Source: Thiovibrio frasassiensis
GTDB lineage: Bacteria; Desulfobacterota; Desulfobulbia; Desulfobulbales; Desulfurivibrionaceae
Direction: 5' to 3'
Assembly: GCF_029607905.1 (NCBI RefSeq)
Contig: NZ_JAPHEH010000001.1
Coordinates: 1,269,530-1,333,529 of the forward strand
Length of the DNA: 64,000 bases
Below the pieces are notes generated by a model. It made no database searches. It worked only from the letters and a program-made list of their open reading frames with translations, and was not told the DNA's origin. A program made the position numbers and the translations under genes. Below, one piece after another: positions 7,059-20,786 of this stretch; the first letter of the stretch is position 1, and each line of letters starts with the position of its first letter.

Positions 7059-7625
7059 TTACAGTGCGGTCCAGTTAGCGGCAGTGGTAAGAACGTTGAC
7101 CCCTGCGGCGCCAACGGCGGGAACATCACCGATTACAAGAGTATAGGGATCGAGGCCAAAGTTTCCAGTGGCGTTCCAGTATACTGCGGTAACATCACTG
7201 TCCACGCCAAAGGTCCGGGGGCCAGTGCGATGTTTTGCCACTGCGGTAAAGGCACTATATTGGAAGGGAGCAGCAGCGTTGCCAAGACCAACTACGCAGC
7301 CAATGTTCACACCATTGCTCACGCCGATGTTCAGGCCCGTGCCGCCATCGGTAATCCAGTGGTCGGCGGCGGTGGCCGGACCGGCCAGAACTACGTTGGC
7401 ACCAATTGCTGCATTCGATGTTGCGGCGGTATAGCCAAAACCACGCCAGTCAACAAAGTAAGCAGCCTGGGATTTCTGGAGATTGACCACATCGCTGGTG
7501 GCCGAGGAGTTGAAGGCCCGCTGGCGATAGGCGGCGAACTGCGGGATGGCGATGGCCGCCAGGATGCCGATGATCGCGACAACGATCATCAACTCTACGA
7601 GGGTGAAACCTTTTTGGTTCTTCAT
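7059..7625 (-). CDS. pilA: Type IV major pilin PilA
   Basis: A 188-residue prepilin. The leader MKNQKG is cleaved before F(+1), giving the classic FTLVELMIVVAIIGILAAIAIPQF helix with Glu5. The C-terminal globular part is Gly/Ala/Val/Asn-rich and carries one Cys (NIGCVVG), so the usual disulfide-bonded D-region is absent. This matches the disulfide-free pilins of many deltaproteobacteria, though the protein is longer than the truncated Geobacter PilA-N. The start at 7625 follows a good Shine-Dalgarno (AAAGGAG); the frame upstream to 7658 is leader. It is transcribed away from the adjacent PilS/PilR-like genes, with a sigma-54 type element about 80 nt upstream. It is the structural subunit of the pilus made by the genes that follow. 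Confidence 0.97.
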   Translation of the reverse strand: MKNQKGFTLVELMIVVAIIGILAAIAIPQFAAYRQRAFNSSATSDVVNLQKSQAAYFVDWRGFGYTAATSNAAIGANVVLAGPATAADHWITDGGTGLNIGVSNGVNIGCVVGLGNAAAPFQYSAFTAVAKHRTGPRTFGVDSDVTAVYWNATGNFGLDPYTLVIGDVPAVGAAGVNVLTTAANWTAL

Positions 7626-7703
7626 GATACGCTCCTTTGTGTGTGTGGTGCCTTGCAAAATTAAAAACTTACTCCGTTATATGGTCTAGCCATGGCTTGG
7701 GTC

Positions 7704-7751
7704 AATTCCAATTTTCATGCCAGCACGAGGATTATTTTGAAAATTGGAATT
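7704..7751. repeat. Perfect 14-bp inverted repeat over the pilA promoter
   Basis: AATTCCAATTTTCA (7704-7717) and its exact reverse complement TGAAAATTGGAATT (7738-7751) are separated by 20 nt. The proximal arm overlaps the -12 region and spacer of the sigma-54 type pilA promoter. The distal arm lies just upstream of -24 relative to pilA. It could be a regulator-binding site; protein and role are unknown. Confidence 0.75.
7707..7722 (-). promoter_or_regulatory. Candidate sigma-54 (-24/-12) promoter of pilA
   Basis: On the minus strand TGGCATGAAAATTGGA matches the consensus TGGCACGNNNNTTGCW with correct spacing. It deviates at TTGG instead of TTGC and at one T in the -24 box. It sits about 82 nt upstream of the pilA ATG, beside a PilS/PilR-like pair whose regulator has a GAFTGA sigma-54 contact loop. 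Confidence 0.7.
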
Positions 7752-8029: not shown

Positions 8030-9586
8030 ATGCGGGTCTGGAATTTGAAGGCGCAGACGATTCTGGCCTTTTTTCTGGTTCTTGGAATCGGCATGTTGCT
8101 GCTCAATGCCGTGTCCATGCAGCTCTGGAAACGGCAGGCCCTGTCCGCCGATCTGGATCATGGCCGGAGCCTGCTTGCGGCCATGGCCAGGAACCTGCCT
8201 GCAGTTGGCGGCGCAGAACGGTTCAGCACAGAAGTCGAGCAGATAGTGCAGTCGGATGCGGCTGTTGTCTGCGTCGCTGCGGCAAACGCACAGGGAAAAA
8301 TCATCAACATCTCCGGGGGATGTGAACACTTCACAAAAGCCTTGGAGGGTGCCTTGGCCAATGCTGTGCACTCTGGGGCTGCGAACAGCCGGCTGCTTTC
8401 TCCTCCTCCTGGTAACGATTCAAACCTGCAAAACAATGTGCTCCTCGTTGCCCAGCCCTTCCGGTCGCCGGATGGGTCAAGGGGTGGTGTGGCCATGGTC
8501 CGCTCCACCGAACCGATCGATGGGCAGTTGTGGGAAAATGAAAAGATCATCTTGGTCTATATCCTTGCCAATGCGGTGGTCCTTGCGGTTGTGGGTTTTT
8601 TCCGCATGGTCAAGCTTGTGGTCCGTCCCCTGGAGCGACTTGCCGAACAGGCGGACACCTATTCGCTCCGCCATGATTTTTTGCCCTTTTCAGGGCGGGT
8701 GGGGAATGAGTTCGGTCGTCTTTCCTCAAGCTTGAACCGGATGATTGCGCAACTTGAAGAGGATCGGGGGGCGCTTATGCAAAAGGTGGACTCGTTGCGG
8801 CTTGCCAACGAGGAACTGGATCGAAACCGGCGCGAAATGGTCCGGGCGGAAAAGATGGCCTCCATCGGCAGGCTGGCTGCCGGTCTTGCCCATGAGATTG
8901 GCAATCCCCTTGGGGTGGTGCAGGGATATTTGGATCTTCTCGGGCAAGGGGAGGTGACCTCCGACGAACGGAAGGAGTTCGCAAGGCGTGCCGAACAGGA
9001 GGTGACGCGGGTGGGCAGACTGATCCGGCAGTTGCTTGATTATGCCCGACCGGTTGAAGGCGCCCCGGCGCCGTTGCGGGTGCGGGAGCTGTTGGCGGAT
9101 TGCCTGGAGCTGTTTCGCCAGGGGAAGGTAGATGGACACATAGAGTTTTCTTTTATTTCTGAGGCGGACGAAGATCTGGTGCTGGCCGATGGGGATGGTC
9201 TGCGTCAGATCTTTGTGAATTGTCTGATGAATGCGGTTGATGCCATTGGTCCGCTGCCAAAAGGAAGGATCCTCGCGCGGTGCTTCAACGAGCAGGAGGG
9301 GGATCGGCGATACGTCCGGGTTGTTATCGAGGACAACGGTCCGGGAATTGCACAAGAACATCTGGAGAGCGTGTTCGAGCCTTTTTTCACCACCAAGGAG
9401 CCGGGCAGTGGGACAGGCCTGGGGTTGGCCGTGTCCTGTTCGCTTGTCGAGAAATGGGGGGGGAGGATGTGGGCGGAAAGCGGGCGTGGTGAAGAGGGGA
9501 GGGGCGCGGCCATCTGGATTTCCTTGCCTCTGGCTCCTTCCGCGAGTGGGGGGGATTCTCCGTCGGACAATGGCATGGCGGCGTAA
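8030..9586 (+). CDS. pilS: PilS-like membrane sensor histidine kinase
   Basis: A 518-residue kinase. TM1 is at about 9-28, a periplasmic sensor domain at 30-170, TM2 at about 173-192 and a HAMP-like linker at 195-245. Next come HisKA with phospho-acceptor His288 (LAAGLAHEIGNPLGVVQGYL), the HATPase N-box NCLMNAVDAIG, G1 DNGPGIA and F/G2 FFTTKEPGSGTGLGLAV. It starts at ATG 8030 behind GGAGG at 8018-8022. The response regulator begins 12 nt after its stop, so the two are co-transcribed. Pseudomonas PilS has six TM helices; this protein has two, so the PilS label rests on its place between pilA and a PilR-like regulator. Confidence 0.82.
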   Translation: MRVWNLKAQTILAFFLVLGIGMLLLNAVSMQLWKRQALSADLDHGRSLLAAMARNLPAVGGAERFSTEVEQIVQSDAAVVCVAAANAQGKIINISGGCEHFTKALEGALANAVHSGAANSRLLSPPPGNDSNLQNNVLLVAQPFRSPDGSRGGVAMVRSTEPIDGQLWENEKIILVYILANAVVLAVVGFFRMVKLVVRPLERLAEQADTYSLRHDFLPFSGRVGNEFGRLSSSLNRMIAQLEEDRGALMQKVDSLRLANEELDRNRREMVRAEKMASIGRLAAGLAHEIGNPLGVVQGYLDLLGQGEVTSDERKEFARRAEQEVTRVGRLIRQLLDYARPVEGAPAPLRVRELLADCLELFRQGKVDGHIEFSFISEADEDLVLADGDGLRQIFVNCLMNAVDAIGPLPKGRILARCFNEQEGDRRYVRVVIEDNGPGIAQEHLESVFEPFFTTKEPGSGTGLGLAVSCSLVEKWGGRMWAESGRGEEGRGAAIWISLPLAPSASGGDSPSDNGMAA

Positions 9587-9598
9587 CAGGAGATAGGC

Positions 9599-10969
9599 AT
9601 GGGTGAGATTGGGCGGTTATTGATAATCGATGATGAGGAAACCATGCTGGAGATGCTTTCCATCGTCACCTCTAAAGCCGGATATGAGGTAACCCTCGCC
9701 AGAAACGGCGAGGAAGGGTTGGCCGCCATCGAGAAGGGGCTTTTTTCCCTGATTTTATGCGATTTGAAGATGCCCCGGTTGGATGGGATGGCGTTTCTGG
9801 GAAAAGCCAGGGAGCAGGGCGTTGATGCACCCATTATAATGATGTCCGCCTATGCGGCCATCGAGGATGCCGTGGCCGCGATAAAGGGTGGCGCCTATGA
9901 TTTCATCACCAAGCCTTTTAAGGCGGATGAAGTGCTCCTGACCCTGGGAAGGGCTGCGGAGCATATGCGGTTACGGCGGGAAAATCTCCTGCTGCGGCGG
10001 CAGATCGATGATTTGCAGGTTTCGCAGGGGCTTGGTGGGATTATCGCACAAAGCCCGGTCATGACGGCATTCCTCAAGACTGCCTCCAGAGTTGCACAGC
10101 ACGACATCACGGTTCTCATTACCGGAGAGAGCGGGACCGGCAAGGAGCTTTTGGCGCGGGGGATCCACGCCAAAAGCAACCGGGCGCAAAAACCATTCCT
10201 TGCCGTCAATTGCGGGGGGATGCCGGAAACCCTTCTGGAAAGCGAATTGTTCGGCTATGTGCGGGGTGCCTTTACCGGGGCGGAAAAAGACCGAAAGGGG
10301 ATTTTTCAGGAGGCTGAGGGCGGAACGCTGTTTCTCGACGAGATCGGCGAACTTCCGGCTGATGCCCAGGTGAAATTGCTGCGGGTCCTGCAGGAGCGGG
10401 AGGTACGGCCGGTGGGCGGGGCACGGACGGTGCCGGTCGATGTGCGGGTCCTGGCGGCGACAGCCCGGGATTTGCAGGAAGAGGTGAGATCCGGGACCTT
10501 TCGGGAGGATCTTTTCTTCCGCTTAAATGTGATTCCTTTGCATGTCCCGCCTCTTCGGGAGCGGAAGGATGATATCCCCCTTCTCTGTATGCATCTGCTC
10601 GCCAAGATCGGCAAAAAATTCGGGAAAAGCGTTCCGGAGTTATCCCCCGCCGCCTTGGCGTTGTTGTTGCGTCACCAATGGCCGGGAAATGTGCGGGAGT
10701 TGGAGAATGCCCTGGAGCGGGCGGTAGTGCTTGCGGATAAAATTATCCTGCCGGAGCATCTGCCTGAAAATCTGCTGGGGCAGGAATCAGAAAATTGCCT
10801 GGAAGGAGTGTTGGGAACATTTTCGTTGAAAAAGGGGCAGCGCGAGATGGAGCGGGTTTTGATCCGACGGGCCCTGGATGCAACCGGGGGCAACAAGAGC
10901 AAGGCTGGCCTCCTGCTCGAAATCAGCTATCCTTCCCTGCTCAGTAAAATGAAAGAATACGGTCTGTAG
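9599..10969 (+). CDS. pilR: PilR-like sigma-54-dependent response regulator
   Basis: A 456-residue NtrC-family activator. The REC domain (1-120) has acidic pocket DDEE at 11-14, phospho-Asp55 (LILCDLKMP) and the Lys in TKPF. The AAA+ domain has Walker A GESGTGKE (176-183), the GAFTGA sigma-54 contact loop (223-228) and Walker [17 protein letters not shown]-type helix-turn-helix lies at about 425-455. It is co-transcribed with the upstream kinase and divergent from pilA, which carries a sigma-54 type promoter. It is therefore the likely activator of pilA and possibly of the downstream minor pilin operon. The NtrC-family assignment is certain; the target genes are inferred. Confidence 0.9.
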
Positions 10970-11048
10970 TGGGATACCAGGAAAACTATTAAAAAAGTTT
11001 ATAATTGTTCCGTGCAAAGAGTGTGTGCTATAAAAAAAAATAACAAGC

Positions 11049-11064
11049 AGGCATGGTTTTTGGG
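11049..11064 (+). promoter_or_regulatory. Weak candidate sigma-54 element upstream of the minor pilin operon
   Basis: AGGCATGGTTTTTGGG keeps the GG and TTGG dinucleotides at -24/-12 spacing and deviates from consensus in the same way (TTGG) as the pilA element. It lies about 145 nt before the fimT-like ATG. The rest of 10970-11208 is AT-rich, with no gene seen. Confidence 0.3.
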
Positions 11065-11208
11065 GATCAAGCGAAAGCGGTCCAGGTTTATTGGTTATCG
11101 TAATATGTTGTAATACCGATACTTTTTGTGCTTGTTGGGGTGGGGGGTGTTTCCGGGCATGCTTTTTGTATATGTCAGGAAGCAAGTAGTTATTAGGAAA
11201 AATTAAAA

Positions 11209-11787
11209 ATGGTCGTCGATAACACAATGAATTCGCTCAAGAGACAACATAGGCGAGCCGGCTTTACTCTGGCTGAGCTGATGATGGTGATTGCCATTAT
11301 CGGTATCATGTCGATGATTGCCATCACCATGGGGCTTCGCTATTACCCGGATTATCAGGCCAGGGGAGCGGCTCGCAATCTGGTGGCCAATTTGCAGTTG
11401 GCCCGGATAGAGGCGATTCGGTCAAGTGCCAATGTGGTGGTCGAGATGACCCCCGGTGTGCTCACTGTTACTGGCCGGGTTGGGGGCTATCGGGCCTTCG
11501 TGGATGACGGCGCGGGAGGCGGTGTTTCCGCAAACAACATCCGTGATGGCGCGGAGCGCATCATTTATACAGAAATCATGCCCGACCGGGTCTCTCTTAT
11601 CGGGCTGGCCGGTTTCACGGCGGCGGCCGACCCTCTCGCCGCAGCGGGGACGAGGTTTACCCGCTACAATGCGCGGGGTATTTTGCCAAGCGTGGCCGAT
11701 GCGGGCACCATTACCCTGGGTAATGGTACGAGAACTTATACCGCAGCCCTTTCCACCGCCGGGTATATTCGTTTGGGAGTTTTCTGA
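11209..11787 (+). CDS. FimT/GspH-type minor pilin
   Basis: A 192-residue prepilin whose cleavage site is RRAG-FTLAELMMVIAIIGIMSMIAITMGL, with Glu5 retained. It is followed by the LVANLQLARIEAIRSSANVVVEM segment typical of FimT/FimU/GspH pseudopilins. It is the first gene of a tight operon with pilW, pilV and pilX (TGATG overlaps), the usual order for the priming complex at the pilus tip. The start at 11209 has AGGA about 12 nt upstream; the internal Met at 11227 is an alternative that gives a more normal leader length. FimT and FimU cannot be told apart from sequence alone. Confidence 0.88.
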   Translation: MVVDNTMNSLKRQHRRAGFTLAELMMVIAIIGIMSMIAITMGLRYYPDYQARGAARNLVANLQLARIEAIRSSANVVVEMTPGVLTVTGRVGGYRAFVDDGAGGGVSANNIRDGAERIIYTEIMPDRVSLIGLAGFTAAADPLAAAGTRFTRYNARGILPSVADAGTITLGNGTRTYTAALSTAGYIRLGVF

Positions 11788-12443
11788 TGCAAAATATTCA
11801 ACAGAAAAGGACTCTGGCTTTGCTCTCCAGAGAGGGTTTTACCATTGTGGAGTTGATGATCTCTCTGCTCATCGGCGGAGTGATCATGGCAGGTGTCGTC
11901 TCGGCCTTTCTTGCCCAGCATAAAAGCTATCTTGTGCAGGACGACAATGTGTTCATGCAGGAAAATCTGCGCTCTGCCGTGGAAATAATGACCCGGGATT
12001 TGCGCATGATCGGTTATGACCCGGACGGACTCGGCGCGGGCATCACCGCTGCCGCAGCCAACAGCCTCACGTTTACGAGAGAAGACGATGCCGCCGGCGC
12101 GCTTGAAACCATAACCTACTCGCTGTATGACGCTTATGGCGATAATGATAATGATTTGGGGCGAATTCTCAATGGGGGCGCACAGACACCGGTTGCCGAA
12201 AATATCGAAGTCCTTGATTTTGTCTATCTGAACGGCAGTGGCACAGTTACCGCCGCCCTCGGTGATATCCGCACCATACAATTTGCTTTAGTGGTGCGGG
12301 CGGAGACCCCGGATCAGAAATATGTGGACACCAACACCTATACCAATCTGCAAGGGACGACGATCTTGGGTCCTCCAGGCGATAATTTCCGTCGTCGTCT
12401 CTACCGGAGTTCCGTGTTGTGTCGGAACCTTCGGAATCTGTAA
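11787..12443 (+). CDS. pilW: Minor pilin PilW
   Basis: A 218-residue prepilin with cleavage site SREG-FTIVELMISLLIGGVIMAGVVSAFLAQHKSY, followed by NLRSAVEIMTRDLRMIGYDPDG, a hallmark of PilW/GspJ-like proteins. Its ATG overlaps the previous stop (TGATG at 11785-11789), indicating translational coupling. Two Cys near the C-terminus could form a disulfide. Together with FimT-, PilV- and PilX-like proteins it should form the tip-priming minor pilin complex that carries PilY1. Confidence 0.88.
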   Translation: MQNIQQKRTLALLSREGFTIVELMISLLIGGVIMAGVVSAFLAQHKSYLVQDDNVFMQENLRSAVEIMTRDLRMIGYDPDGLGAGITAAAANSLTFTREDDAAGALETITYSLYDAYGDNDNDLGRILNGGAQTPVAENIEVLDFVYLNGSGTVTAALGDIRTIQFALVVRAETPDQKYVDTNTYTNLQGTTILGPPGDNFRRRLYRSSVLCRNLRNL

Positions 12444-12452
12444 GGAGGCGCA

Positions 12453-12941
12453 ATGCGAAACGGAGAGCGTGGCTTTACCATTATCGAGGTCCTCATTGCC
12501 ATGTTGGTGCTGGCCACCGGCATTCTTGGCGCGGCTGTCTTGCAGATTACCTCGATCCGGGGAAACAGTTCCGCCTTTGAGATGAACGAAGCCGGAGCGC
12601 TTGATGCAGCTTCTTTGGAATCATTGCTGGCGGAGTCATACGCGGCAGGGGGGCTGACTTCGACTCAGCTGTCAACCATGATGGGGGTTCCCATGGGAAC
12701 CTTGGTGGACATGGATGGGGATGGTCAGGCGGGTTTGAACGACAATACCGTGGCAACTGCGGATTACAACGTTGCCCAGGGGCGTTATACGCTGTTTGTC
12801 AATGTTTGGAGCTATACTCCCCCAGCTCCGGCTGTGCCGAATGTTCGCCACCGGATCCGGGCCATTATGCAATGGCAGGGTATTCTCGGTATTCGGCGGC
12901 AGATTGTTTTGAACAGCGTACGTGGAACCAAGGTGCCCTGA
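12453..12941 (+). CDS. pilV: Minor pilin PilV
   Basis: A 162-residue prepilin with cleavage site GERG-FTIIEVLIAMLVLATGILGAAVLQ, the extended hydrophobic helix characteristic of PilV (GspI-like). A good Shine-Dalgarno (AAGGAGG) lies 6-7 nt before ATG 12453. The C-terminal part has the RHRIRAIMQWQGILG strand pattern common in PilV proteins. It is 9 nt after pilW and overlaps pilX, so it is part of one operon. Confidence 0.88.
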   Translation: MRNGERGFTIIEVLIAMLVLATGILGAAVLQITSIRGNSSAFEMNEAGALDAASLESLLAESYAAGGLTSTQLSTMMGVPMGTLVDMDGDGQAGLNDNTVATADYNVAQGRYTLFVNVWSYTPPAPAVPNVRHRIRAIMQWQGILGIRRQIVLNSVRGTKVP

Positions 12942-13555
12942 TGGATGCCTTTTCCCGAAAATTGGCATCCTGGTGCCGCCACAATGAACGATCGCAGCGT
13001 TTGCTCTATAATAAAAAGGCCGGAATTATGATCGGACAAAATGAAAAGGGCTTTGTGCTGGTTGCGGCCATGGTCATGCTTTTGATCGTGCTGGCAATAG
13101 GCATCTTCGCCTCCCGACAGAGTAACACGGAAACCATGATCTCCGGGGTTGAAAAAAACTATAAGGAAAACCTGTATCGGGCGGAGACCGCGGTTTTTGA
13201 TGGGGCGCAAGAGATCGAAGATGCCAACTACGATGCGCTGGCCGATAGAACGCTTCCCGGCTTGATCTACAAGGATCAACTGGCCATCCGCCCGGGGAAT
13301 GATACAGACGCGGACGGCATCGTGAGCCCTGCTGAGGTACGGACCAGCCCTGAATGGGACCCTGCCACCGCTGGAGCTGTTTCCCAGGTCTCCTGGGTTA
13401 CTCCGGCACGGTATATGTGTGTTGATCAAGGGGTTCCTCCCGGACAAAAACTCAGCGGCGATGTAATGGTAAGCTATATGTGCTATGGCAAATCTCAAGA
13501 AGACAGCGGCAATGTCACCATCCGGATTGAATTCAGAAAAATATTGAAACAATAA
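12941..13555 (+). CDS. pilX: PilX-like minor pilus assembly protein
   Basis: A 204-residue protein with an internal hydrophobic helix (KGFVLVAAMVMLLIVLAIGIFASRQSNTETMISG) in the form typical of PilX, where the pilin-like helix has V in place of E at +5. The conserved NTET...NYKENLYRAETAVFDG stretch follows. The ATG at 12941 overlaps the pilV stop (TGATG), so I prefer it, but it leaves a 37-residue leader. The ATG at 13028 (MIGQNEKG) would give a normal short prepilin leader. Two C-terminal Cys may be paired. Confidence 0.82.
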   Translation: MDAFSRKLASWCRHNERSQRLLYNKKAGIMIGQNEKGFVLVAAMVMLLIVLAIGIFASRQSNTETMISGVEKNYKENLYRAETAVFDGAQEIEDANYDALADRTLPGLIYKDQLAIRPGNDTDADGIVSPAEVRTSPEWDPATAGAVSQVSWVTPARYMCVDQGVPPGQKLSGDVMVSYMCYGKSQEDSGNVTIRIEFRKILKQ

Positions 13556-13608
13556 GTGAATCAAAGATCTGGCCAAACCGCAGGCAGAGAGCAAGGAAGG
13601 AGAGTCCC

Positions 13609-16600
13609 ATGAAAGCCTATGACCTTAAGATGGTTCGGATTGGCAAGCTGTTCGCTATTCTTGCCCTGGGAGTTTTTTCCCTGGTTGTGCCCACGGGCAA
13701 GGCGTGGGCTGCGCCGACCTATATTGATGAAACCAGTGCCCAGTTTTCTTCAACCGGTACCTGGACGACCATCTCCAGCCATTCGGAGGCCTACCCTACG
13801 CCGGGGAGCTTTAAGGAGTCGGGGATTGGTGCGGTAACCGCCACTTGGAGCATGCCGGCCACTCTGGCTACCGGCAACTATGAGGTCTGGGCAAACTGGC
13901 GAACCTTGAGTACCTACGGGACCTGTGTGCAGTTTGATGTCACCCATGCGGCGGGAACCACCTCGAAGAAGGTCAATCAGAGTACGCCGGATACTCCCCC
14001 GTATTTTGGCGCAGGCAACAGAAGTTCTGATAATTTTCTTGGCGTTTTCACCCTGAATTCCTCAAGCAGGGTAAAGCTGACCCATACAGCCAGCGCCGGG
14101 AATCTGGCCTCAGCCGATGCCATCATGCTGGTGCCGACCACCGAAACAGCGCCCGTAACGCTTGATATTTCCGATCTACCGCTGGCCAGTCAAATTCAAT
14201 CCGCCCCCCCCAACCTCATGTTTCTCCTTGACGACTCGGGGAGCATGGACTGGGAGTTTTTAACTCCTGAAGCTGATGGCATCTTTGCTTCTGAATATTA
14301 TGTGTTCGATAATCCCGGTGATAATGTTTACTCCAGTACCTATATTCTGACTGGTACGGATCGGGCCAAATTCAAGGCCCAATGGTCCGGGTACAACAGG
14401 CTGTACTATAATCCGAAAACAACCTATACCCCATGGCCAAGCTTGGGCAATGCCTCAACCACCACGCCCAGATCCCACCCCATGAGTGCGGCGTATACCA
14501 TCAATCTTGATGCAACCTACTATGCGATAAGTAGTGATATCGTTCTTGATAACAAGGATGCGGCGGCGTATGCCCAAAGCGGCACGGTCAAAGAATCCAG
14601 CGCTTCCTATGAATATCTGAGCAGTTCGTATTACCTGGATGTGACCGGGCAATGGGCGACTTGGACCACGCCGGCTAATCTGGCTGGAGATCATGAGGTG
14701 TGGGTGTGGTGGACCATCTCCGGAACCCGGGATAATAATGCCAAATATGAGATATTTGACGGCGCAGGGTTAAAAAATACCGTGTTCAAAAACCAGACGG
14801 TAAACGGAGGGCAATGGATATCGTTGGGGACATATACTTTCGCGGGCACCGCCAAGGGGTCGGTGAAGCTGACCAGATCCGGAAACGGGAGCAGTACCAG
14901 CGCCGATGCGGTCAAGTTTGTGCCTGCGGCCAGCGCATCGATAAATATCCTCAATGCCCACTATTATACCTGGGATGATGTGAACAGCAACGGGGTGCGC
15001 GATGCGGGCGAGAGCATCTGGTTGGTCAATCTCACCGACCCCATCGCCTACTACCGGTTTAACGATGCAAATGCCAACGACCGGGTTGAATCAGGCGAGT
15101 TGATCGTTACCGCCGCCGCATCAGTTCCGGCAACCGTTCGCACCACCGCCCTGCCAACCTCGGCCAGTGCCTATACGACGGAGAGGCAGAGTTTCGCCAA
15201 CTGGTATTCCTTTTATCGACGGCGGGAGTTGACCGCCACTGCCGCCATTTCCCGGGTAATCAGCGGCATTACCCAGATGCGGGTCGGGATCAAAAGTATC
15301 AACAACAAGATCCATCAGCCCGTAGTGGATGTGCATGTGGGGGCGAGCGACCAGACCGCCACCCTGTATAGCACCCTCTATGCCCTAAATATCACGGCGA
15401 TGGGTACCCCGTTGCGGTTGGGCCTGAAAAGCGTAGGCCAATACTATGACGTCGATGATGGGCAAGATGGGGGCATAGGCGCCTCGCCCATCGCCACTGA
15501 AATCAATGGCGGAGCCTGCCAGCAGAACTTTTGCATCATGATGACGGACGGCTATTACAATGGAAATAGTCCTGCTGTTGGTAACGTGGATGGCAATAAT
15601 GGCGCCCCCTTTGCCGATGGCTATTCGGATACCCTGTCGGATGTCGCCATGTATTATTATGAAAACGACTTGGCGAATAATCTGGTCAACAAGGTCAAGG
15701 AAATCAGTGCCTACGACAACGCAACCTGGCAACATATGTCGACCTATTCCGTTGCCTTTGGCGTTACCGGCACGCTCAACCCGGACTCCTATCCGGAAAG
15801 CAATAACTTTAAGAATGCTGCCGGGGCGTATCCGGTTTGGCCGAACCCGACTGCCGGGAGCTTGCAGAAGATCGACGACCTCTGGCATGCCTCGGTCAAT
15901 GGCCGCGGTTCCTTCCTGAGCGCCGGGGACCCGCAGGAGTTGGTCGATGCACTGACTGCCGTGGTGCAGAACATCTCTTCCAAGGCGGGCTCGGAGTCCT
16001 CACTGACCCTGAACAGCGATGGCTTGAGCGGGGATCTTCAGGTTGGCAGCCGCTTGTACGAAACAACCTACAACCCCGGGGACTGGTCCGGCGATGTGAA
16101 AGCCTACAGCGTTGATTATATTACCGGAGTTCCGCAGCTCCCTGCGCTGTGGTCTACCCGGCAGCTCCTGGAAGATTTTCTGGACAGTGCTTCGACGGCC
16201 CACACCACCCGGATTATTGCCACCTATGACGGTAGCCGTGCCCTTGGCAGCCGAGGGATTCCGTTTAAGTATGCATATCTTACCGCTACGCAGCAGGCAT
16301 TAATGCACAGTGATAGCACTGCGGTGGATTATCTCCGGGGCGATAGCTCGCTGGAAGTACAGAAAGGCGGCTCTTTTCGCGACCGGGTATGGCATCTGGG
16401 GGATATTGTTAATTCCATGGCAGTCTACAATGATGATGTGCTCTATGTCGGTGCCAACGATGGTATGTTGCACGCCTTCAGCGCTACATCCGGGGAGGAG
16501 TTGTTTGCCTATGTCCCCAATCTGGTGCTGGGGAATATGTATAATCTCACGCAGACCACGTATACCCATAACTTCTTTGTAAATGCCAGTCCCACTGTTA

Positions 16601-18657
16601 GGCGGGTTGGTACTTCGACAACCTATCTCTTCGGTGGTCTGGGAAAAGGGGGCAAGGGATACTATTGCCTGGATATCTCTCCGGCAAAAACAGCTACCTT
16701 TCAGGATCTGTCCGCCTCCCAGGTGGCAAAGGAAACGCAGCTCAACTCCATGGTGAAATGGGAATATTCCGGCGCATGTCCCACCCTGGATAATGACCTT
16801 GGCTATACATTCAGTGATGCCGACATGCTGCGATCAAATGCCACCTCTGTGAACAGCGGTCTGCCCGTCGCCGGATATGTGCTGTTTTTCGGTAACGGCT
16901 ACAGCAGCCCGAACGGCAGCGCGGTTTTGTACTGTCTCAATCCGGAAACGGGCGCGGTGATCAAAAAGATCGACACCCAGAGCGGTCCCGGCAACGGGCT
17001 TACCACTCCGGTAGTGTTTGATGGTAATGGTGATTTTAGAGTTGATTATGCGTACGCCGGGGATCTGAAGGGGAACCTCTGGAAATTCGATCTCTCCTCT
17101 GCCGACCCGGCAAACTGGGATGTTGCCTATAAGATTGGCGGTGTGCCCGAACCGGTGTTCAGAACGCAAAGCCCGGGGCAGCCCATAACCTCAAGACCGG
17201 AGGTTATGTATGCCCCCAACAATGAGAACACCGGGGAAGCCAATCCTGGATACATGGTAATTTTCGGGACGGGGAAATACTTGGGTGTGTCCGATATCTC
17301 CGATACCAGCCAGCAATCCGTTTACGGGATCTGGGATTATGGCGATGATGCCGATAACGCTGAATTTCTTGGCCGGTTTGCTCCGGGGGCAGCCCAAAAG
17401 CTGAGCAATCAGCCGGTTGGATATACCCTGCTTGAGCAGACCGATATCTATGAATCGGAGACCGTGGTCGCCAATTTTTCCGCTATTCCTCCCACCACAA
17501 CGGATGCGGCGACGGTCACTTTTGAGGACCATTCCTCGGGTACCATTACTTCCCGCCTGTGGGATTTCGGAGACACCACCACGAGTACGGCAACCAGCCC
17601 TGATCATACCTTCACCGTGCCCGGGATCTATGATGTCAGTCTTACCGTAACCAGAACAACACCCACGCCGGTGGTGTCGAGCGCCAAAGTGGCCACCATA
17701 ACCGTTAAGCACGACATGGTTGGCGTTATTGCCACGGATCTCCATGACAATCCCGAGCTTCCGGATGCCAGCACGGTATTGGCCTATTTCGAAAGTGCGG
17801 TCAGCACCGCGACAACCTCCGGGGTTACCGTGCAGTTCAGTAACCTCTCGCAAGGGCTTGTGACCAACCCTGCCTACTTGTGGGATTTCGGCGATGGCGA
17901 CACAAGCACTCTTGCTGCTCCGGCGCATACCTATACGGCAATTGGGGATTATACTGTTACCTTGATCGTCAGTTCGGATGAAGGGGGGGACACCAGAACG
18001 AATTCTAACTATATCAGCATCTCGCACCCATGGGTGGTCGCCATCGATCAGAACGAAGGAACTGGGGCCACGACCTGGAGCGATGTGAGGGTCTTTAGCA
18101 ACAATGTGGCTCATTACTGCACTGAAGCTGATGCGACCACCGGGCAGCATAAGAATCCCGGGCCGTGTCCAGATGATCCAGACACCGTCAGCATCAACGA
18201 AAATGACCCCGCAGTATATCCAGTGCATCTGGGCTGGTATTTCAATCTGCCCACCCCGAGGGAACGGGTGGTGGTTAATGCGGATATCGGGGGGGGAGTC
18301 GCCTGGATTATTTCCCATATCCCGCAGGAAACCATGTGCAGTGCCGAGGGTTATTCCTGGGTCATGGCTCTTGATGCCGCAAGCGGAGGACGCACCGATG
18401 CCTCCATCTTTGATATCAATTATGATCGGAGAATCAATTCGGAAGATTTAATCCAGATTGGGACAGAGTGGGTTTCCATAACCGGCTTTAAAGTTGATAA
18501 ACGGGTGTACATGCCGGGCCGGTTGTATGATGTGAAAACCAAAACGGAGAATATTTATTTTGAGGTGGGGACCGACGGAGGTGATGGAACAGGAACTCCG
18601 CCGATTGTTGGTAAAGCACCCCGGCAGGGGGTCGTCCTCTGGCAGGAAATGAATTAA
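13609..18657 (+). CDS. pilY1: Giant mosaic PilY1: VWA domain with golvesin-like inserts, PilC-type propeller with PKD inserts
   Basis: A 1,682-residue exported pilus tip adhesin/assembly factor; typical PilY1 has about 1,000-1,200. The signal peptide is cleaved near residue 35 (AWA). A golvesin-like module spans about 39-176 (G-x-W opening, GNYEVWANW, KVNQ, SADAIMLVP). The VWA domain opens at 203 with the MIDAS motif DDSGS (208-212) and resumes with FCIMMTDGYY at 641-650. Between these lie a second golvesin-like module (312-440) and Ca-type loops DVNSNGVRDAGE and DANANDRVESGE. The C-terminal propeller starts near 800 (VLYVGANDGMLHAFSA at 944-959) and has a Ca loop, DGNGDFRVD, at 1138-1146. 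Two PKD domains (about 1288-1367 and 1395-1473, each with WDFGD) interrupt it before the last blade (GWYFNLPTPRERVV). The gene starts behind GGAGAG and follows pilX. Confidence 0.92.
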   Translation: MKAYDLKMVRIGKLFAILALGVFSLVVPTGKAWAAPTYIDETSAQFSSTGTWTTISSHSEAYPTPGSFKESGIGAVTATWSMPATLATGNYEVWANWRTLSTYGTCVQFDVTHAAGTTSKKVNQSTPDTPPYFGAGNRSSDNFLGVFTLNSSSRVKLTHTASAGNLASADAIMLVPTTETAPVTLDISDLPLASQIQSAPPNLMFLLDDSGSMDWEFLTPEADGIFASEYYVFDNPGDNVYSSTYILTGTDRAKFKAQWSGYNRLYYNPKTTYTPWPSLGNASTTTPRSHPMSAAYTINLDATYYAISSDIVLDNKDAAAYAQSGTVKESSASYEYLSSSYYLDVTGQWATWTTPANLAGDHEVWVWWTISGTRDNNAKYEIFDGAGLKNTVFKNQTVNGGQWISLGTYTFAGTAKGSVKLTRSGNGSSTSADAVKFVPAASASINILNAHYYTWDDVNSNGVRDAGESIWLVNLTDPIAYYRFNDANANDRVESGELIVTAAASVPATVRTTALPTSASAYTTERQSFANWYSFYRRRELTATAAISRVISGITQMRVGIKSINNKIHQPVVDVHVGASDQTATLYSTLYALNITAMGTPLRLGLKSVGQYYDVDDGQDGGIGASPIATEINGGACQQNFCIMMTDGYYNGNSPAVGNVDGNNGAPFADGYSDTLSDVAMYYYENDLANNLVNKVKEISAYDNATWQHMSTYSVAFGVTGTLNPDSYPESNNFKNAAGAYPVWPNPTAGSLQKIDDLWHASVNGRGSFLSAGDPQELVDALTAVVQNISSKAGSESSLTLNSDGLSGDLQVGSRLYETTYNPGDWSGDVKAYSVDYITGVPQLPALWSTRQLLEDFLDSASTAHTTRIIATYDGSRALGSRGIPFKYAYLTATQQALMHSDSTAVDYLRGDSSLEVQKGGSFRDRVWHLGDIVNSMAVYNDDVLYVGANDGMLHAFSATSGEELFAYVPNLVLGNMYNLTQTTYTHNFFVNASPTVRRVGTSTTYLFGGLGKGGKGYYCLDISPAKTATFQDLSASQVAKETQLNSMVKWEYSGACPTLDNDLGYTFSDADMLRSNATSVNSGLPVAGYVLFFGNGYSSPNGSAVLYCLNPETGAVIKKIDTQSGPGNGLTTPVVFDGNGDFRVDYAYAGDLKGNLWKFDLSSADPANWDVAYKIGGVPEPVFRTQSPGQPITSRPEVMYAPNNENTGEANPGYMVIFGTGKYLGVSDISDTSQQSVYGIWDYGDDADNAEFLGRFAPGAAQKLSNQPVGYTLLEQTDIYESETVVANFSAIPPTTTDAATVTFEDHSSGTITSRLWDFGDTTTSTATSPDHTFTVPGIYDVSLTVTRTTPTPVVSSAKVATITVKHDMVGVIATDLHDNPELPDASTVLAYFESAVSTATTSGVTVQFSNLSQGLVTNPAYLWDFGDGDTSTLAAPAHTYTAIGDYTVTLIVSSDEGGDTRTNSNYISISHPWVVAIDQNEGTGATTWSDVRVFSNNVAHYCTEADATTGQHKNPGPCPDDPDTVSINENDPAVYPVHLGWYFNLPTPRERVVVNADIGGGVAWIISHIPQETMCSAEGYSWVMALDAASGGRTDASIFDINYDRRINSEDLIQIGTEWVSITGFKVDKRVYMPGRLYDVKTKTENIYFEVGTDGGDGTGTPPIVGKAPRQGVVLWQEMN

Positions 18658-18670
18658 GGGGAGAATTCTC

Positions 18671-18961
18671 ATGCGTACCCTAGCGATCATGGTATTATCG
18701 TGCGGTTTACTTTTCGGGATGGGGCTTCAGCCCGCATACGCGAATAAATTCTTCCATCAAGCAACCATCGACGAGATTAGGCAGGAAAGCATCGTCATTG
18801 ACGACCATGAACATAAACTTGGCCCAGCAGTACGGTTTTTCACTGCCAACAACCAAGAGATCGGCCGAGGGGCTTTTGCCAAGGGGCAGAAAGTCAATTT
18901 TGAAGTGAACGAAAAAAATGAACTGGTCTCAGTGTGGCAGTATGCGCCACCACGAGAGTAG
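18671..18961 (+). CDS. PilY2-like small exported protein
   Basis: A 96-residue protein with a signal peptide (1-24, cleaved after AYA). The mature part has the pattern ATIDEIRQESIVIDDHEHKL ... GAFAKGQKVNFEVN ... LVSVWQ, a short beta-rich fold similar in layout to PilY2 (G-x-I-x-x-I ... I-V-I-D ... L-x-x-G-x-x-V-x-F). It stands 13 nt after pilY1, exactly where PilY2 stands in Pseudomonas, with GGGGAG as Shine-Dalgarno. The family assignment is by pattern and position; PilY2 itself has no well-defined biochemical role. Confidence 0.65.
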   Translation: MRTLAIMVLSCGLLFGMGLQPAYANKFFHQATIDEIRQESIVIDDHEHKLGPAVRFFTANNQEIGRGAFAKGQKVNFEVNEKNELVSVWQYAPPRE

Positions 18962-18980
18962 GGAGGGGGTGTCTGGTCGC

Positions 18981-20786
18981 ATGGGATGTCTGAATGACGA
19001 GGGCTATCTCCTCGACCTCTTGCTGCAAAATCGGTTGATCAATGCCGAGCAACGCACCCTTGTCGAAAACCGCAAGGCCCAACAGCGTCAGCTTCTGCTC
19101 CGGCAGCACAGCGCCCGGCGCAAGAGTGATACGGGCAGGGAAAGGGATGATTCCCTGAGCTTTGTTGATATCATCGTCTCGTTGAATCTGGAACTGCCCG
19201 GGAAAAAAGGGCAGGCGCTCACCGAGGAGCTGATTTTTCGGGCCGTGGCCAAGGATCTGGGGCTGCCGTTTAAAAAGCTCGACCCCCTTGAGCTGGATCT
19301 GAAGACCGTTACCAAGACCATCCCCCGCACCTTTGCCTTCCGGCATCTGCTGTTGCCGTTTTCCATTGCCAATGGCGTGCTTGAGGTTGCCATCTGCAAC
19401 CCGGACAACAAAACGGTCCTGGCTGAGATCGAGCGGGCCAACCAGCTCACGGTCAAGCCGTATTTGGCCACCAAGAGCGACATCCGTAAGACCCTGGCCG
19501 AGTTCTTCGGTTTCCAGTCTTCCATCACCGCAGCGGAAACCCATCTGGCCCGGCCCTTGGTGGATCTGGGCAATCTCGAGCAGTATGTGCGCATCTCCTC
19601 CACCGAGGAGGCGGCCTCCTCGGACCAGCATGTGACCTCGGCGGTGGACCATATGTTCAACTATGCCTTTGAGCAGCGGGCCAGCGATATCCACATCGAG
19701 CCCAAGCGTGAGCAGGCGCAGGTCCGCTTGCGCATCGATGGGGTGCTGCATACCATCTATAAGCTGCCCAAGGTGGTTCATGCCGCAGTCATCTCCCGGA
19801 TCAAATCCCTTGCCCGGATGGACATTGCCGAGAAGCGGCGGCCCCAGGACGGGAGAATCAAGGTGGATCGCGGTGGTCAGGAGGCGGAGATCCGGGTCTC
19901 CACCGTGCCGGTGGCCTTTGGCGAAAAGGCGGTGCTGCGAATCCTGGATCCGGATATCCTTTTTCAGGATGTGGAAAATATCGGTTTCTCTGCGCGCGAT
20001 CTTGAAGTGTACCAAAGCTTCATGTCTGCGCCCCATGGGATTTTTCTCGTGACTGGGCCAACGGGCAGCGGCAAGTCCACCACCCTCTATTCGACCCTTA
20101 AGCAGATCGCCACCCCGGAGAAGAACGTGGTTACCGTGGAGGATCCGGTGGAGATGGTGCATGAGGAGTTCAACCAGATTCCGGTGCAGCCTTTGCTGGA
20201 TGTGACCTTTTCCACCATCCTCCGCAATATCCTGCGCCAGGACCCGGACATCATCATGATCGGCGAGATCCGCGATCTGGATACGGCGGTGAATGCCGTG
20301 CAGGCGGCGCTCACCGGCCATCTTGTTTTTTCCACCCTCCACACCAACGATGCCGTGGCCTCCATCAGTCGCTTGCTCGATCTGGGGGTGCAGCCGTTCA
20401 TGATCGGTTCGACCCTCCTTGGGGCCATGGCCCAGCGGCTGGTGCGGAAAATTTGCCCCCATTGCAGCGAGAGCTACCGTGTCTCGACCGACGAGTTGCG
20501 CGGTTTCGGCTTGCCGGTGACCGAGGAGGGTGAGATCGAGCTGCGGCGGGGCAAGGGGTGTCCGCAATGCCGGGCTACCGGCTACCTTGGCCGGAGCGGC
20601 ATTTTTGAGATCTTCGTGATGAGCGACAAGATCCGCAAGCAGATCAGCGGGGGGAACTCTGAAACAGAGATCCGGCAAACCGCCATGGAGGAGGGCATGA
20701 CCACCCTCAAGGCGGATGCCTGGTGCAAGGTGAAAAGCGGCATCACCACCCCGGAGGAGGCCTTGCGGGTAACCGGAGGGGATTAG
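18981..20786 (+). CDS. pilB: Type IV pilus extension ATPase PilB (GspE family)
   Basis: About 601 residues. The N-terminal GspE/MshE-like domain (about 55-165, LTEELIFRAVAKDLGLPFKKL) precedes the secretion ATPase. The ATPase carries the RASDIHIEP strand, Walker A GPTGSGKST, Asp box TVEDPVEM, Walker B IIMIGEIRDLDTA and the His box LVFSTLHTNDA. A CxxC...CxxC zinc site follows (CPHCSES, CPQCRATGYLGRSGIFEI). This is the cytoplasmic hexamer that powers pilus polymerisation. The frame is open to 18918, but that would overlap the pilY2-like gene. The ATG at 18981 follows GGGAGGGGG (18961-18969); ATG 18942 is another option. It closes the pilus operon. Confidence 0.93.
   Translation: MGCLNDEGYLLDLLLQNRLINAEQRTLVENRKAQQRQLLLRQHSARRKSDTGRERDDSLSFVDIIVSLNLELPGKKGQALTEELIFRAVAKDLGLPFKKLDPLELDLKTVTKTIPRTFAFRHLLLPFSIANGVLEVAICNPDNKTVLAEIERANQLTVKPYLATKSDIRKTLAEFFGFQSSITAAETHLARPLVDLGNLEQYVRISSTEEAASSDQHVTSAVDHMFNYAFEQRASDIHIEPKREQAQVRLRIDGVLHTIYKLPKVVHAAVISRIKSLARMDIAEKRRPQDGRIKVDRGGQEAEIRVSTVPVAFGEKAVLRILDPDILFQDVENIGFSARDLEVYQSFMSAPHGIFLVTGPTGSGKSTTLYSTLKQIATPEKNVVTVEDPVEMVHEEFNQIPVQPLLDVTFSTILRNILRQDPDIIMIGEIRDLDTAVNAVQAALTGHLVFSTLHTNDAVASISRLLDLGVQPFMIGSTLLGAMAQRLVRKICPHCSESYRVSTDELRGFGLPVTEEGEIELRRGKGCPQCRATGYLGRSGIFEIFVMSDKIRKQISGGNSETEIRQTAMEEGMTTLKADAWCKVKSGITTPEEALRVTGGD

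Follow-up and report, generated by a model that had tools for sequence, protein, structure and literature searches.

A pilY1 gene within a minor pilin cassette

We analysed a window of 64,000 nucleotides from Thiovibrio frasassiensis, in which pilY1 lies at positions 13609–18657 on the plus strand (the strand of all features below unless stated otherwise). The gene starts with ATG and encodes a protein of 1,682 amino acids, whose translation begins with a signal-peptide-like N-terminus. A genome-wide profile search (2.84 Mb, three contigs) returned it as the only PilY1, and Pfam matched T4P_PilY1 (PF05567) at residues 944–1247 (E = 3.8e-41). As the NCBIfam equivalog NF040838 (T4_PilC_Neiss) scored 106.9 bits, below its curated cut-off of 350 bits, the protein is, judged by its sequence, a member of the PilC superfamily and not the Neisseria equivalog.

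The gene belongs to a cassette bounded by conserved flanks. On the 5′ side lie a PilS/PilR-like histidine kinase and sigma-54 response regulator (8030–10969), followed by the first cassette gene, which encodes a FimT/GspH-type minor pilin (11209–11787; Pfam GspH and N_methyl). Next come PilW (11787–12443), a PilV-like minor pilin (12453–12941; N_methyl, named from its position) and PilX (13028–13555; PilX_N match slightly under the Pfam cut-off). Directly 3′ of pilY1, a 96-amino-acid protein with a signal-peptide-like start (18671–18961) gave no Pfam match; it is a positional analogue of P. aeruginosa PilY2 and finds a 28% match adjoining pilY1 at locus L043 of another genome. The 3′ flank consists of a PilB-type ATPase (18918–20786; start uncertain, homology from about 18990) with an SmpB gene downstream. 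Upstream of fimT, no match to a sigma-54 site was found near 11000–11209, and the 16 sigma-54 matches in the window were no more than chance (19.8 expected). A separate pilin (N_methyl) gene lies opposite the pilSR genes at 7059–7722 on the minus strand. Some 200 bases of this region (7525–7722) show 83% identity in a genus mate, and a sigma-54-like TGGCATGAAAATTGGA at 7722–7707 (minus strand) has two mismatches and is not above chance in the window.

Structure alignment and conservation delineated a VWA domain in two parts. The first (14164–14523) carries the MIDAS residues D208-x-S210-x-S212 (14230–14244), and the remainder (14929–16011) contains helix 1 (ERQSFANWYSFYRRR) and the MIDAS residues T600 and D647 (TDGYY). 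This N-terminal VWA with a MIDAS is of the P. aeruginosa type and matched VWA structures with a Z of about 16. The beta-propeller is also split, into a first part at 16417–17463 (Pfam, 3HX6 structure and profile alignment) and a last part at 18223–18624, 3′ of a PKD insert (model and 3HX6 alignment). A calcium-loop-like DxNxDxxxD motif (residues 1138–1146; 17020–17046) aligned, in the profile alignment, with DNNSDGVAD, the calcium site of 3HX6. Among 32 aligned homologues, D208, S210, S212, T600 and D647 were invariant or nearly so and the loop D1138-x-N1140-x-D1142-xxx-D1146 was kept, with T600, D647, D1142 and D1146 invariant. The protein thus has in common with P. aeruginosa PilY1 (3HX6) the propeller (Z 28.3), the DxNxDxxxD loop, a MIDAS VWA and the pilWVX-pilY1 operon. 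However, it adds two golvesins and two PKDs, whereas 3HX6 has no insert at the PKD site.

Golvesin and PKD modules inserted into the PilY1 core

The first Golvesin_C domain is N-terminal (residues about 38–176; 13720–14136; 47.1 bits, E = 4.6e-12, hmmsearch), and the second lies inside the VWA, in what we call the V1 slot (residues about 309–440; 14533–14928; Pfam E = 9.3e-22). Pfam likewise assigned Golvesin_C (PF25275) to two stretches of the protein, the best at 311–438 (E = 1.3e-31), and hmmsearch gave spans of 38–175 and 311–438. Both are full-length profile matches whose scores, 77.4 and 47.1 bits, exceed the cut-off of 31.6, and a search of the entire genome (2.84 Mb, three contigs) returned no further Golvesin_C; chance is excluded. 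The two PKD domains (17500–17718 and 17791–18033) were assigned by Pfam (PKD_4, two stretches, E = 2.5e-25; PKD family PF18911/PF00801), and both copies contain the WDFGD motif. GC content along pilY1 did not mark the modules as foreign. A golvesin-domain tree by slot (129 columns), its forks mostly without resolution, neither shows nor excludes golvesin duplication between slots.

To place the modules in the fold, we used AlphaFold2 models of two pieces, residues 34–860 and 796–1682, built from alignments of 39 and 37 homologues. In the N-terminal piece, the VWA and golvesin 2 were mostly above pLDDT 85–90. Golvesin 1 is missing from the model fold because the alignment had no homologues in that region, so this domain is assigned by Pfam only. 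VWA structures, among them the VWA of S. sanguinis PilB (7BA2; Z 16.0) and the tip protein Mfa5 (6TNJ; Z 15.5), matched model residues 164–768 (actual 197–801) in VIA-align. Model residues 275–408 (actual 308–441) matched another structure, 6F2P, on their own (133 residues, Z 20.3, rmsd 1.9). As this match falls inside the range of the VWA match, golvesin 2 interrupts the VWA, and its position is between the MIDAS strand (model 169–174) and the first VWA helix (model 486–502). In the C-terminal piece, 3HX6 aligned over model residues 142–877 (actual 937–1672; 421 residues, Z 28.3, rmsd 2.4), a range that includes the PKD block (model 494–693, at low model confidence). A profile of the protein also covered 3HX6 on both sides of the PKDs (E = 6.7e-129). 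As 3HX6 aligns on both sides, the PKDs interrupt the propeller, and the segment after them (from about residue 1539) belongs to the propeller domain.

An alternative would be that these segments belong to the regular VWA and propeller folds and are not inserted. We reject this reading, which is now highly improbable: golvesin 2 has its own strong structural match within that of the VWA, the 3HX6 alignment flanks the PKDs, and homologues without inserts align through. Thus the propeller and VWA core is intact despite the golvesin and PKD modules. An earlier note, made from the letters of this DNA, had proposed two golvesin modules before and inside the VWA, two PKDs inside the propeller and an undisturbed core, and all of this was borne out by the Pfam and structure matches and by the conserved MIDAS and calcium-loop residues; the counter-possibility it named, normal VWA or propeller folds, is contradicted by structure prediction and alignment. 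Its placement of the PKDs before the last blade holds in so far as a segment of the propeller domain follows them.

Distribution of the modules and divergence of the tip cassette

To examine how widespread this architecture is, we collected homologues from a class-wide search of 258 genomes and from a scan of named genomes giving 80 loci, with an alignment as query. Two sites in the VWA were scored, V1 between the MIDAS and the NAHYYTW motif, and V2 after helix 1. Of the 93 homologues that could be scored, 39, mostly from Desulfobacterota, had a golvesin in V1; this fraction over-represents relatives of the window PilY1, which had served as the query for collecting them. Inserts of another kind occupied V1 in nine of the 93 and were weakly PPC-like in those tested, and 45, including the sampled Gamma- and Betaproteobacteria, had no recognisable insert there. 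The PPC-like beta module in the VWA slot (weak Pfam PPC) was seen in L106, L107, L108, L100, L103, L044, L140, L141 and L149. Golvesin is therefore not essential to PilY1: in some relatives the slot is empty or filled by a PPC-like module. Nine homologues carried a V2 golvesin and two (L150, L153) tandem V1 golvesins; 53 of the 54 golvesin segments matched Pfam Golvesin_C at E 0.01 or better. On a quick tree of the core with open forks, the minimum number of changes was 13 for the V1 state and three for V2. Golvesin was rare in an even draw of 395 genomes of the phylum: 20 had it besides the window genome, and in eight of these (seven families) it separated the two halves of the VWA in a PilY1.

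The complete set of N-terminal golvesin, VWA golvesin and two PKDs was found only in the window genome, G035 and G065, which represent three families of one order. The PilY1s of the latter two (L043 and L095) have a domain order identical to that in the window, ending in the propeller, and are 41–46% identical to the window PilY1 over the full length. Golvesin is also present in PilY1s from named MAG loci of Desulfobacterota such as L136 and L153. Other relatives lack the N-terminal golvesin and PKDs, or have Calx-beta extensions or a V2 golvesin. The VWA golvesin insert is a recurrent feature of the clade, and the complete combination is that of a small subgroup. The possibility that the arrangement is standard for the clade, which the earlier note had raised against itself, applies in part to the VWA golvesin, as this is common in Desulfobacterota PilY1s, but not to the full set. 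A universal architecture was rejected, as most PilY1s of the same genus and family are of a different, divergent type. Among the genus and family mates searched, golvesin occurred only in G012 (same genus; L058:2903–9349) and G017 (same family; L059:9865–16947). In both it is N-terminal and followed by Big_9/cadherin domains; the two proteins are 66% identical to each other across genera, and their N-terminal golvesin is apparently an independent recruitment.

Comparison of the locus with genus mates showed that the tip cassette, from fimT to the 96-amino-acid gene, differs wholesale between conserved flanks. In the regulator flank, DNA identity to G010 was 84% as far as about 11059, and from about 18990 onward genus mates were 84–92% identical, but the 7.9 kb in between (11059–18990) were almost without DNA match. 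Whereas PilB and SmpB of genus mates are 84–95% and 90–98% identical to those of the window, their PilY1s reach only 23–33%, over fragments of 60–371 amino acids. The PilY1 of G035, from another family, is 45% identical over the whole length. In a propeller tree, the window PilY1 fell among other Desulfobacterota, closer to Gammaproteobacteria than to the PilY1s of its own genus, and joined G035 and G065 with weak support (70/90); monophyly with the genus mates was rejected at a cost of 284 log-likelihood units (p-AU 1.6e-29). The genus mates themselves have several unrelated PilY1 types at the same locus position. At the cassette edges we found no repeats of note pointing to a mobile element.

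The tip cassette either came in by exchange at a fixed site or reflects the differential loss of two ancient cassettes. Deep paralogy of the latter kind is compatible with single-copy genomes, such as the window genome with its one PilY1. Nonetheless, we regard it as unlikely, as the cassettes sit at the same place, within the same flanks and with sharp edges, and as G012 and a member of another genus share 66% identity in PilY1 against 61% in the PilB segment. Under horizontal exchange, recombination in the conserved flanks would swap the cassette, and a species could change its tip specificity at once. A wider reading, which we advance tentatively and at a little under even odds, is that in this order the operon for the pilus tip serves as a hypervariable exchange locus. 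Whole cassettes would be swapped between families at a single fixed site flanked by pilSR and pilB-smpB, and a plug-in slot behind the MIDAS strand of PilY1 would repeatedly gain, lose or replace CBM-type modules (golvesin, PPC-like), so that recombination might change specificity at two levels. Swapped cassettes between near-identical flanks would supply naturally occurring series of tips in a shared genetic background.

Putative glycan binding at the pilus tip

To characterize the golvesin module itself, we searched structures with a profile of the 54 golvesin segments, which retrieved 6F2P first (E = 6.7e-32) and then the CBM35 of an exo-glucosaminidase (2VZP, E = 0.0015). Foldseek matches of golvesin 2 included CBM6, CBM35 and CBM36 structures; of the two golvesins, a CBM6/35-type beta-sandwich fold was recovered for golvesin 2 only. 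The 6F2P match is to the C-terminal module, of carbohydrate-binding type, of a Paenibacillus xanthan lyase (902–1040), which shares the golvesin fold at 28% identity but sits at the end of an enzyme and not in a PilY1. Bacteroides Cbeg4 and Cbeg5, which contain the same domain type (CBM6-CBM35-CBM36_like_2), bind glycans and are lectins (PMC9166713). Membership in this domain type does not guarantee lectin activity, as the Dictyostelium golvesin after which it is named has been described as a Golgi trafficking protein (PMC9166713). By analogy, we infer that the window golvesins are carbohydrate-binding modules, and an adhesive role of the inserts is plausible given this type of fold and the lectin activity of Cbeg4 and Cbeg5 (PMC9166713).

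We therefore favour, with a probability of roughly 0.6, a model where the window PilY1 is a type IV pilus tip adhesin that presents glycan-binding modules and where cassette exchange changes the specificity of the tip. The target gripped by a type IV pilus is set by its PilY1, few of whose ligands are known. Docking of the propeller onto the tip complex of minor pilins is established for PilY1, and in the window this would be the FimT-PilW-PilV-PilX complex. The VWA–golvesin face would then point outward, and golvesin 2, inserted in the segment leading away from the MIDAS, would be presented beside the metal-dependent binding face, like the arms of S. sanguinis PilB. The golvesins might give the tip affinity for polysaccharide, be it foreign or own exopolysaccharide (EPS), cell walls or substrate, and the PKDs might widen or space the propeller. 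A CBM-type module beside the MIDAS would provide a testable ligand class for pili in sulfate reducers that have not been cultured and in their relatives with a syntrophic lifestyle.

Two other roles of the modules have to be weighed. PKD domains are commonly linkers, and golvesin and PKD could both be passive spacers that widen the tip, with adhesion to a protein ligand left to the MIDAS-bearing VWA. The intact MIDAS fits this view, as does the absence of golvesin, or its replacement by unrelated PPC-like modules, in relatives. We nevertheless doubt it: a CBM-type fold recurs in the same slot (39/93) and stands in tandem in L150 and L153, which suggests selection on the module, and A. baumannii ComC loses function when its VWA insert is deleted (PMC10374093). 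It is also conceivable, though improbable, that the modules recognise the cell's own exopolysaccharide and that the tip acts in twitching or self-aggregation rather than in adhesion to foreign surfaces. In Myxococcus, contact of type IV pili with EPS triggers retraction. EPS dependence differs among Myxococcus PilY1 variants (PMC9109919), and the golvesin matches the C-terminal module of xanthan lyase, an enzyme whose substrate is a bacterial exopolysaccharide. However, no polysaccharide locus was linked to the cassette, and the present data do not distinguish own from foreign glycan.

Comparable features occur in A. baumannii ComC, a PilY1 whose variants show lineage-specific VWA insertions and tip-cassette exchange, but the ComC insert is a finger with a Tyr-rich motif, whereas the window insert is a known CBM-type module (PMC10374093). 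In S. sanguinis PilB (7BA2, Z 16.0) and RrgA, inserted arms flank the MIDAS of a pilus VWA, as in the window; PilB is a pilin and not a propeller protein, and its arms are not golvesin domains (PMC8179133). The same paper reports 68 modular PilC/PilY1 architectures. Modular PilY1s and cassette exchange are thus already published in other bacteria. What is new lies above all in finding, within Desulfobacterota, a plug-in slot for a recognisable CBM-type module together with the exchange of entire tip cassettes. We found no mention of PilY1 together with golvesin in the open-access papers searched, and the full combination appears undescribed. The earlier note nevertheless overstated the novelty, as the VWA golvesin is common in PilY1s of Desulfobacterota and two more families of the order have the full combination.

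Work on syntrophic sulfate reducers has highlighted PilY1 as one of their adhesins (PMC10553843), and one secretome paper contains both PilY1 and PKD. No PilY1 core was detected in a 3,027-amino-acid protein of G034 (L071:5572–14652), which combines about 26 tandem PKD repeats with a golvesin. PilY1s of 2,743–3,793 amino acids from the same order (L096, L106, L104) carry Calx-beta arrays before the VWA.
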